Source: Chloroflexota bacterium (GTDB lineage: Bacteria; Chloroflexota; UBA11872). From it: a stretch of 64,000 bases of DNA. This document shows, piece after piece, positions 31,219 to 63,258 of this stretch. Under the pieces are notes generated by a model. The model was not told the origin of the DNA. It searched no databases and saw nothing but the letters and a program-made list of their open reading frames with translations. The translations under genes and the position numbers were made by a program. Each line of letters opens with the position of its first letter. Positions within the stretch are counted from its first letter, which is position 1. The stretch spans positions 1-64,000 of the forward strand of contig JAJDUU010000009.1 of NCBI GenBank assembly GCA_022826485.1. Reading direction: 5' to 3'.

Positions 31219-31266
31219 AGTCCGTCATTCCCGCGAAGGCGGGAATCCACCCCTCCAAGTCAACCG
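31219..31266. repeat. Palindromic intergenic repeat A, simple form
   Basis: GTCCGTCATTCCCGCGAAGGCGGGAATCCACCCC with the core hairpin TTCCCGC-GAAG-GCGGGAA, followed by CAAGTCAACCG as in the 5716 copy. Lies between hisD and hisB on the minus-strand transcript. Confidence 0.9.
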
Positions 31267-44701: not shown

Positions 44702-44833
44702 GAAAGTCCTTTACGAACTCCTCCGTCATTCCGGCGGAAGCCGGAATCCAGTCCGGTCGAACCTGGCGGCGTGCTGGATGCCCGGCGTAGGGGCGGATTC
44801 GTAGCCCGCCCCACCGACGTCTACAAACGTCTC
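44702..44833 (+). mobile_element. MITE-like element B, older copy (132 bp)
   Basis: Same length and clearly homologous to the element at 54201-54332 on the other strand: shared core CTCCGTCATTCCGGCGG and GCCGGAATCCAGTCCGGTCG, AACCTGG, and end CAAA-GTCTC. Its termini have decayed (GAAAGTCC..., ...CAAACGTCTC), and no target duplication is visible. It fills the ribD 5' region. With it the 306-bp gap 44694-44999 holds only the promoter candidate at 44906; I see nothing else. Confidence 0.75.
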
Positions 44834-52661: not shown

Positions 52662-54170
52662 CTAATCCAGGCCGTAAATCTCGCCGTATTTGCGGGACAG
52701 GTGGTGCATGAGAGCGTCGACGCCGATGGGGGCGCCGGTGACGCGCTGCACGAGCTCCGCGGCGGTGAAGACCCGGCCGTGGCGATAGATGGAGTGGCGC
52801 AGCCAGTCGAGGAGCGTCGCCAGGTCGCCGCGGCGAATGCGCTCGGGCAGGTCGGGAAGCGCGCGGCGGGCCGCGGCGAACACCTGCGCGCTGATGAGAT
52901 TGCCCAGCGTGTAGCCCTGAAAGGCGCCGCCGACCGTGCCGTGGAACCAGTGCACGTCCTGCAGCACGCCGTCGCGGTCGTCCGGGGGCTCGACGCCCAG
53001 ATCGCTTACATAGCGCGCGCGCCAGGCCTCGGGCAGGTCGCGCACCGCCAGCCGCCCGTCGAGCAGCTGCAGCTCCAGGTCGAAGCGCAGCATGACGTGC
53101 AGGTTGTAGGTGACCTCGTCGGCGTCGGTGCGAATTAGCGACGGCTGCACGTAGTTGATCGCGGGATAGAAGTCATCCAGCGGCACCGTGCCGAGCTGGT
53201 CCGGGAAGGTTGCTTGCAGGTGCGCGAATTGTCCTTCCCAGAAATCCCGGCCGCGCCCCACGAAGTTTTCCCAGAGACGCGATTGGCTCTCGTGCATGCC
53301 GTTGGAGGCGCCGTCGCCCAGCGGCGTGCCCTCGAATACGGGATCGACGCCCAGCTCGTAGAGCGCGTGGCCGGCTTCGTGCATGGCGCTGAAGAGGTGC
53401 TCGCCGAGGAAGTGCTCGTCGGCCCGGACGGTGATGCGCACGTCATCCGAGGCGAAGGTGGTCATGAAGGGATGCGCGGTGTCGTCGATCCGGCCGCGCT
53501 CGAAGTCGAACCCCATCAGCGCGACCACGCGACGGGCGAAATCGCGCTGGGCGCTGATGGGAAAGTGCCGGCGCACGGCGGAATCGTCGTTCCCACCTGC
53601 CGCGGCGATCCGTCGCAGCAAGGGAACCAGCCGCGCTCGCAGCTCCGCGAAAAGGGCCGATATCTCGGAGGCGGTCATGCCCGGGTCCTGGCGGTCGATC
53701 AGCGGATCGGCGACGTGCCGCGCGTTGGGGGTGAAGTTCGAGAGCTGCCGGCTGAGGTCGAGCGTGCGTTCGAGCACGGGCCGGACGGCGGCGAAGTCGT
53801 TGGCGGGCCGCGCCTTGATCCAGGCGGCGTATGAGGCTGCCGCATGCTCCTCGAGCTCGGCGGCGAAGTCGGCCGGCACGCGCACGTCGCGTTCGTAGTC
53901 GCGCCGCGCGACGCGAATCAACGCCGCGTCGGGATGCTCCGGCGGCAAGCTGTCGGCATGTGGCTGCAGGTCGTCGAGCAGGGTGCCGATGGCGGCGTCG
54001 GTGAACGCGGCGTGGGCCAGCCGTTCGAGCGTGGCGATGTGCCGCCCACGGGAAACGGCGCCCTTCGGCGGCATGTAGGTGGTCTGGTCCCAATGGAGCA
54101 CGCAGGCCGCCGCGCGCAGATCGCCGACTTCGCACAGGCGCCGGCGCAGGTCGTCAAGCTTGGGGTTCAT
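52662..54170 (-). CDS. Metallocarboxypeptidase, M32 (Taq) family
   Basis: 502 aa, the family length, ATG 54170 behind GGAGG. Zinc motif HEAGHALYELG (HExxH) with the downstream Glu in HESQSRLWENFVGR. N-terminal VLHWDQTTYMPP is also typical. Acts as a cytosolic carboxypeptidase that trims peptides. Separate from its neighbours by spacers; a repeat cluster lies upstream of it. Confidence 0.94.
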   Translation of the reverse strand: MNPKLDDLRRRLCEVGDLRAAACVLHWDQTTYMPPKGAVSRGRHIATLERLAHAAFTDAAIGTLLDDLQPHADSLPPEHPDAALIRVARRDYERDVRVPADFAAELEEHAAASYAAWIKARPANDFAAVRPVLERTLDLSRQLSNFTPNARHVADPLIDRQDPGMTASEISALFAELRARLVPLLRRIAAAGGNDDSAVRRHFPISAQRDFARRVVALMGFDFERGRIDDTAHPFMTTFASDDVRITVRADEHFLGEHLFSAMHEAGHALYELGVDPVFEGTPLGDGASNGMHESQSRLWENFVGRGRDFWEGQFAHLQATFPDQLGTVPLDDFYPAINYVQPSLIRTDADEVTYNLHVMLRFDLELQLLDGRLAVRDLPEAWRARYVSDLGVEPPDDRDGVLQDVHWFHGTVGGAFQGYTLGNLISAQVFAAARRALPDLPERIRRGDLATLLDWLRHSIYRHGRVFTAAELVQRVTGAPIGVDALMHHLSRKYGEIYGLD

Positions 54171-54180
54171 GAGTCCTCCA

Positions 54181-54350
54181 GTCCGTCATTCCCGCGGAGG
54201 GAGACCTTTGCATAAATCTGTAGGGGCGTGTCTCAGACTCGCCCGACGCGAAGCATCTGGCGCGCTTCCAGGTTCGACCGGACTGGATTCCGGCCTCCGC
54301 CGGAATGACGGAGGGGTTTACGCAAAGGTCTCCGGAGGCGGGAATCCACC
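54181..54350. repeat. Palindromic repeat A, copy interrupted by a MITE
   Basis: The left arm GTCCGTCATTCCCGCGGAGG (54181-54200) and the right arm CGGAGGCGGGAATCCACC (54333-54350) reconstitute repeat A exactly once the 132-bp insert and one copy of CGGAGG are removed. With repeat C it fills most of the 322-bp gene-free stretch 54171-54492. Confidence 0.88.
54201..54332 (-). mobile_element. MITE-like element B, 132 bp, with TIRs and TSD
   Basis: Perfect 11-bp terminal inverted repeats GAGACCTTTGC ... GCAAAGGTCTC and a 6-bp direct repeat CGGAGG on both sides. It is inserted inside repeat A. There is no ORF inside, so mobility would need a transposase in trans. Homologous to 44702-44833 in opposite orientation. 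Confidence 0.85.
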
Positions 54351-54373: not shown

Positions 54374-54456
54374 CGTCCTTCCGAGCAACGCGAGGAATCT
54401 AAGGGGCGCGGCGCCTGCGCCAACGTCTTTAGATTCCTCACTGCGTTCGGAATGAC
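54374..54456. repeat. Palindromic repeat C, copy 2
   Basis: CGTCCTTCCGAGCAACGCGAGGAATCTAAGG ... TTAGATTCCTCACTGCGTTCGGAATGACA, homologous to 49920-50003 and ending 37 nt before the surE stop. Its inverted halves can form a long imperfect hairpin. Confidence 0.85.
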
Positions 54457-54492
54457 AGATCTGCCGTTTGGAATGCCAGTGCTACGTCTCCC

Positions 54493-55320
54493 TCATGGGG
54501 CCGAGGCGTCGGCCGCGGGCCTGACGGCCGGCGAAAACGCTCGGGCGATGGCGGGCCAGGGGGCATCGCGCATGACCTGCGCCGTGAACGGATCGGTGAC
54601 GCACACCGACACCGCGCCGGCCTTCAGCGCCGCCGTCTCGTCATCGTCGGATCCAGGACCGTCGAAGATGTTGCCGTAGCGCACGCGAACCGTGATGCGC
54701 TTGCCGTCGACGATCGGCGGCTCTGTGAGGCGCAGGCTCTCGAACAGTGTGAATCGCGCGGGCCGCGTGAGCCGCGCCGGCTCCGTGGCCGCGAAGCCCT
54801 TGGGGGTATTGAGATTGACCAGCAGCGGTTGTTTCAGGACGCCGTGCGCATTGGCGGCCGCGACGAAGCGCGCCACGGCGGCGGCGATGGCCCGCTTGTC
54901 CTCCTCGGGCGATTGCGGGGCGTGGGACACGGCGATGCCGGTGAACCCGCGATCGAGCGCCACGCGCGCCGCGCCCATGGTTCCCGAGCTCACATAGCCC
55001 TGCACGCCGGTGTTCCAGCCGGGATTGATGCCGGACACGATGACGTCCGGCTCGCGGTCGAAGCCAATGGCGCATCCCAAGGCCGCCAGGTTGGCCGGCG
55101 GAGCATCCGCCGTGAAGGCGGGAACGGTCGTGCGGATGCCGTCCGGCGGCGCGGCGCGCTGCAAATCGAACTCAGGCGTCAGCGCCACGGACATGCCGGC
55201 GCCGCTGTAGTTGCGGTCCGGCGCGTAGACCCGAACCTCGCCCAGCGGCTCCAGCGCCTCCGCCAGCGCCCAGAGACCCCGGTCCTGGATGCCGTCGTCG
55301 TTCACGACGAGGATTTTCAT
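54493..55320 (-). CDS. surE: 5'/3'-nucleotidase SurE
   Basis: Removes phosphate from nucleoside monophosphates. 275 aa from ATG 55320. Metal-binding MKILVVNDDGI, then YAPDRNYSGAGMSVAL, VSGINPGWNTG and YVSSGTMGAARVAL, all family motifs. The C-terminus ends near repeat C. Separate from the ABC genes upstream by 92 nt. Confidence 0.94.
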   Translation of the reverse strand: MKILVVNDDGIQDRGLWALAEALEPLGEVRVYAPDRNYSGAGMSVALTPEFDLQRAAPPDGIRTTVPAFTADAPPANLAALGCAIGFDREPDVIVSGINPGWNTGVQGYVSSGTMGAARVALDRGFTGIAVSHAPQSPEEDKRAIAAAVARFVAAANAHGVLKQPLLVNLNTPKGFAATEPARLTRPARFTLFESLRLTEPPIVDGKRITVRVRYGNIFDGPGSDDDETAALKAGAVSVCVTDPFTAQVMRDAPWPAIARAFSPAVRPAADASAP

Positions 55321-63161: not shown

Positions 63162-63258
63162 CCTGTCGTTCCCGCCCCTCGCTCCGTCATTCCCGCCCCC
63201 CGCTCCGTCGTTCCCGCCCCTTACTCCGTCATTCCCGCGAAGGCGGGAATCCACCCCC
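63162..63258. repeat. Tandem 21-bp half-units ending in repeat A
   Basis: Three imperfect 20-21 bp units of the type CTCCGTCRTTCCCGCCCC (63162, 63182, 63203) lead into a full repeat A hairpin CTCCGTCATTCCCGCGAAGGCGGGAATCCACCCCC (63224-63258). The units repeat the left half of repeat A only. Confidence 0.85.

Follow-up and report, generated by a model that had tools for sequence, protein, structure and literature searches.

A 132-bp MITE in the loop of a Chloroflexota REP palindrome and the palindromic targets of its IS5-type relatives

Within a 64,000-nucleotide stretch of contig JAJDUU010000009.1 of a Chloroflexota bacterium (hereafter the window), a short element, B, interrupts a dispersed palindrome, A. 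The locus raises the question of whether one repeat fell into the other by chance or whether the palindrome is a preferred target, and, if it is a target, which transposase might have moved B and what that transposase might recognize.

Element B and the Palindrome It Interrupts

Element B, a 132-bp MITE on the plus strand at 54201–54332, is bounded by perfect 11-bp TIRs, GAGACCTTTGC on the left (54201–54211, plus strand) and GCAAAGGTCTC, as read on the plus strand, on the right (54322–54332, minus strand), with a 6-bp TSD, CGGAGG, directly outside both (54195–54200 and 54333–54338). No transposase ORF was found within 54201–54332, and the short length, the TIRs, the TSD and about 40 relatives in the same genome are those of a MITE. 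A 12-bp TIR (GGAGACC..GGTCTCC) with a 4-bp TSD fits the window copy equally well; however, copies with a different outer base, such as that at C51:22356 (T-GAGACC..GGTCTC-T within CTCTCCC-TCGAT-GGGAGAG), favour the 11-bp parse.

When joined, the flanks of B read CGTC-ATTCCCGC-GGAG-GCGGGAAT-CCA, and the insertion point is exactly the loop of this CGTC-1/dRS3-type REP palindrome, which has the CGTC tag, 8-bp stem starting with AT, 4-nt loop and CCA tail of CGTC-1 REPs. The left half of A (CGTC tag, stem ATTCCCGC and loop) lies at 54184–54200 and the right half (CGGGAAT and the CCA tail) at 54339–54348, both on the plus strand and both with an intact orthologue in three congeners; the left TSD copy is the loop GGAG together with the closing C-G pair. 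The inverted ends, the CGGAGG duplication and the restoration of repeat A on joining the flanks had all been described in the initial annotation, and each was recovered here. Uninterrupted copies of A with a GAAG loop are found at 31228–31245 and 63232–63249, and intact dispersed A (TTCCCGC-type) occurs at 85 genome sites, compared with 0 for the control. The relation between A and B is reciprocal, since an A-like palindrome, A' (ATTCCGGC-CTCC-GCCGGAAT), lies within B at 54287–54306; intact A' (TTCCGGC-N4-GCCGGAA) is present at 164 genome sites. B is flanked by two minus-strand genes, one starting at 54170 and the other ending at 54493, which we take, from their sequences, to encode an M32-type carboxypeptidase and SurE.

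Relatives of B and a Candidate Transposase

Genome-wide, the TIR motif GGAGACSTTTGY was counted at 85 places and its reversed control at 2, and the pattern TIR-N80-110-TIR was found at 10 sites, against 0. Some relatives of B match the window copy at 98–99% identity, and two other copies are 100% identical to each other. The homologue that the initial annotation had placed at 44702–44833 is real (104 of 136 aligned columns identical; score 161 vs. 31 ± 9 for shuffles), with the qualification that it is an older copy on the minus strand, retaining the TIR GAGACGTTTGT at one end and eroded at the other, and lies outside palindrome A.

MITE types with the common TIR measure 122, 132, 144–155 and 201 bp, and those that differ from B in their interiors (201, 144–146 and 154–155 bp) are found at C15:8927-9127, C17:49977, C21:18477, C44:9426, C30:186803 and C47:81815. 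Identical TIRs around different interiors indicate that one end sequence is common to several non-autonomous families. At four contig ends (L065:1-141, L063:1798-2000, L096:1-176 and L066:1-275), another element, starting TGTGTCCAGACCGG... or TGTGTGCAGACCGG..., apparently lies inside a second same-TIR MITE type. Many assembly breaks are located approximately 130–280 bp inside copies with GAGACCTTTGC-type ends, and therefore the true copy number is above that in the assembly.

A complete IS of 1190 bp (L073) is present at C24:16891-18080, starting with GAGACCTTTGCATAAATC and ending with TTCAAAGGTCTC, and is inserted within the loop of a palindrome A with the TSD CCTTCG. Its transposase exceeds the cut-offs of DDE_Tnp_1, DUF772 and the curated NCBIfam model NF033581 (transpos_IS5_4; 275 bits vs. 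a cut-off of 140), and its residues D146, D231 and E282, invariant across ten relatives, are consistent with a DDE triad, placing the element in the IS5 family (IS5_4). Assignment to the IS1182 family was rejected, the model score of 185.5 bits being below the cut-off of 270.

The left TIR of this IS is the same as that of B at 11 of 11 bp and the right TIR at 10 of 11. We hypothesize that B is a non-autonomous member of an IS5-type group that has IS5_4 transposases and 11-bp ends of the GAGACCTTTGC type, and that the transposase of the C24 IS, or of an earlier copy, would bind the common TIRs and mobilize B in trans. The shared ends and target suggest such mobilization, although the two elements are similar over no more than about 18 bp at one terminus and 10 bp at the opposite one, so that the true parent of B may be a lost relative. 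A different, unseen transposase, from a lost or unassembled IS with GAGACCTTTGC ends and the same target preference, would accord with a similarity that ends just past the termini, with the several MITE types that have a common TIR, and with an assembly that breaks at repeats and from which copies may be missing. We think this possible but rather unlikely, since the ends and target of the C24 IS match those of B, and the sole other such transposase in the assembly (G000:C48:36876-37418, L213) is broken, with one in-frame TAG, and only about 40% identical; apart from this broken copy, no transposase of the C24 type was found elsewhere in the assembly.

Insertion into Palindrome Loops

The stretches of the same genome that were examined contained 56 TIR-bounded pairs, and 39 of these have a TSD measuring 5 bp or more. 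In 33 of the 39 insertions, which are not statistically independent, both TSD edges abut a perfect stem 4 bp or longer, vs. about 0.7% of random positions. In the other 17 pairs a recognizable TSD was absent, some pairings being spurious, nested or decayed. The TSD is 6 bp in 34 cases, mostly at 4-nt loops (CGAAGG, CGGAGG, CCTTCG), while the remaining own-genome lengths rest on few targets: 5 bp at three (CACTG, CCCAG, TCGAT) and 7 bp at two (CTTCCAG, CTGGAAG), the latter with 5 unpaired nt without the T-A pair and a 3-nt loop if this extra pair is counted. TSDs of 5, 6 and 7 bp thus go with loops of 3, 4 and 5 nt, that is, the loop plus its closing pair. In this genome, in congeners and in other hosts, the target stem is retained and the loop duplicated after insertion. 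The nesting is not a matter of chance: the element group as a whole prefers the REP loop as its target, the main point that the initial annotation missed.

In our model, B would be joined to palindromic repeats with CCC...GGG half-sites around a 3–5-nt centre, by two strand cuts symmetric about the palindrome axis and usually one base pair into the stem from the loop. Cuts in this position would duplicate the loop and its closing pair as the TSD, and TSD length would therefore track loop length. The half-sites would presumably be recognized by the transposase protein, and the form of the target may be either duplex DNA or an extruded hairpin. Taken together, we consider it very probable that B is a MITE of an IS5-type group, moved in trans by a transposase sharing its TIRs into CCC...GGG palindromes, with a TSD set by the loop.

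Related IS in Other Bacteria and Inverted TSDs

A scan of bacterial genomes with the transposase of the C24 IS as query yielded 80 loci, with hosts among Chloroflexota, Bauldia, Rhodospirillales, Sphingomonas, Rhodopseudomonas, Bradyrhizobium and others. The IS in other hosts, which include alphaproteobacteria besides these genera, likewise lie in palindrome loops, and a stem 4 bp or longer borders the TSD in 41 of the 45 that have one (37 of 41 unique targets). Their targets include GCTTGC or GCAAGC in CTCTCCC...GGGAGAG, CTCAAG in CCCCC...GGGGG, and GCGAAGGC in a CGTC-type REP like palindrome A.

In Bradyrhizobium DOA9 and CCBAU 51765, 9 of the 29 copies listed, about a third (L151, L155, L166, L172, L177, L152, L159, L163 and L180), have the two TSD copies in opposite orientation, one the reverse complement of the other (GCAAGC/GCTTGC). 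Four Bradyrhizobium genomes were searched, and some of the copies with inverted TSDs lie at sites that are empty in relatives. L151 and L155 show a reciprocal flank swap and are products of recombination between IS copies, whereas the flanks of L172 and L177 are contiguous in relatives, as an intact TT-loop palindrome. One TSD was therefore inverted at the site in the latter cases, and recombination between copies was rejected as the source of all inverted TSDs. In situ inversion could result from hairpin-templated repair, from gene conversion between copies, or from quasipalindrome correction after insertion.

Separately, in a Chloroflexi MAG (L105:2400-2440), the left end of an IS of the group is found within the CRISPR-repeat palindrome CCCCGC-GTGT-GCGGGG; the right flank is mismatched, and the site has therefore been rearranged.

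Sequence and Structure in Target Choice

Palindromes A and A' are alike in size, have similar loops and are one base pair apart, and their predicted DNA hairpin energies are nearly equal (−8.9 and −8.7 kcal/mol, respectively). However, 70 element junctions lie on A arms and only 2 on A' arms. Set against 85 and 164 intact sites, this contrast gives a Fisher p of about 1e-10 to 1e-13, and it remains at about 1e-10 or smaller when the 70 junctions are counted as 35 elements and 40 A' copies, assumed to be inside elements, are removed. Among window hairpins of at least 7 bp, 49 of 56 have arms without CCC/GGG, whereas nearly all insertions are flanked by CCC-type and GGG-type arms. Since A' is almost never used despite nearly equal predicted stability, the CCC/GGG half-sites matter; A' may, alternatively, postdate the transposition activity. 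Two palindromes so nearly alike, with only one of them used as a target, allow sequence to be separated from structure in palindrome targeting.

There may also be a structural component in targeting, since the cut position is constant relative to the loop. A more specific proposal, which we offer tentatively and consider unlikely, is that the IS5 subgroup enters extruded hairpins or cruciforms, preferring those with CCC/GGG, and cuts where the stem meets the loop, TSD length being set by the loop, in which case the inverted TSDs of Bradyrhizobium would be fossils of loop repair on hairpin strands.

Recognition of structure only, in which any extruded hairpin or cruciform would be recognized whatever its sequence and cut at the loop, is improbable. 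It would account for the constant place of the cut and for TSDs that lengthen with the loop, as well as for the several unrelated palindrome families used as targets; the loop-duplicating pathway for cruciform insertion was predicted by Wan et al. (PMC5678879), and the in situ inverted TSDs in Bradyrhizobium would suit repair on a hairpin. Against it stand A', which has a TTCCGGC stem and the same loop set as A, and the many CCC/GGG-free hairpins in the window, compared with insertions confined nearly always to CCC/GGG-type arms. With 70 junctions in A and 2 in A', hairpin shape alone was rejected as a sufficient target.

The Orthologous REP in Congeners

With the two joined flanks of B as query, the orthologous locus was recovered in five of five congeners. 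Palindrome A is intact and uninterrupted there in G001, G004 and G005. In G003, the contig starts within a transposase gene and reads ...ATTCAAAGGTCTC|CGGAGGCGGGAATCCACC, which places an autonomous IS at the same junction as B here; a MITE and a full IS at the same base-pair position in an orthologous REP would most simply represent separate insertions. G002 has a decayed B-like copy at about the same place, and the insertion history of the locus is accordingly partly ambiguous. Occupied and empty orthologous sites are evidence of past mobility only. One REP that is empty, occupied by a MITE or occupied by an IS across sister genomes amounts to a natural experiment in target choice.

The claim that B inserted into A, A being the older, holds for the locus at 54201–54332, given the congeners with an empty site, and that of recent mobility agrees with the 98–100% identical copies and the three congeners without the insertion. 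The initial annotation had proposed looking for other copies with matching ends, for a transposase gene with such ends and for an empty site in relatives; these were found, respectively, in the same genome, in the C24 IS and, intact, in three congeners.

A composite A-B-A unit that moved or recombined as a whole, with no independent insertion of B, would explain why many B copies match the query together with A halves, but it is hardly credible and was rejected. B also lies in the unrelated targets CCTTCCCC-CTTCCAG-GGGGAAGG and GCTCC-CCCAG-GGAG, with a TSD that fits each; in congeners A stands alone at the orthologous locus; G003 has an autonomous IS at the site that B occupies here; and the TIRs terminate inside A.

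Relation to Known Systems

The element group resembles IS5-family IS (NF033581) and their MITEs in its short TIRs, its DDE residues and its same-ended non-autonomous derivatives. Known IS5 subgroups generally have fixed TSDs, of lengths other than the loop-following ones described here, whereas the TSDs of this group are 4–8 bp long and follow the loop of the palindromic target.

REP-targeting IS are known, including IS1397, ISKpn1, ISPsy8, IS621, ISPpu9, ISRm22 and ISNm1106, and REP-specific IS families include IS3, IS110, IS4, IS256 and IS5 members (PMC1525189). The present group likewise inserts into repetitive extragenic palindromes; it differs in that its targets are a Chloroflexota CGTC-type REP and several other palindrome families, and in that one group shows the habit in many hosts and has it in common with its MITEs. 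IS1272 (IS1182 family) is "stem-loop replacing", removing the stem-loop without generating a TSD, and its authors drew the loop-duplicating outcome as "pathway c" (PMC5678879). Like IS1272, the group has a DDE transposase and uses palindromes of unrelated sequence; unlike IS1272, it preserves the stem and duplicates the loop, which is the "pathway c" outcome. Identity as a stem-loop-replacing IS was therefore rejected, the target stem being kept and a TSD present.

Palindrome A is like CGTC-1 REPs and Neisseria dRS3 in its tag, its AT-starting 8-bp stem, its 4-nt loop and its CCA tail. CGTC repeats were surveyed in five phyla, Chloroflexi not among them, and their associations with transposases were only fortuitous (PMC3733652). 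Unlike the surveyed repeats, A occurs in Chloroflexota and serves as an IS/MITE landing site; CGTC-type REPs, described without an associated transposase, are thus used as insertion targets by a widespread IS5 subgroup. REP targeting would tend to hold insertions in intergenic space.

REP-targeting IS, with IS5 members among them, are thus already known, and the MITE itself is ordinary. What looks new is the rule that TSDs are loop-sized, as seen across one IS5 subgroup, together with its breadth and the A/A' contrast; no description of the rule for IS5_4 elements was found in the literature searched, which lay mostly outside subscription journals.

Near B, at 54375–54457, lies a distinct dispersed repeat, about 83 bp long and bounded by inverted ends (AGCAACGCGAGGAATCTAAGG...CTTAGATTCCTCACTGCGTTCGGAATGAC); it has dozens of copies, with about 75–93% identity, in this genome and in congeners.
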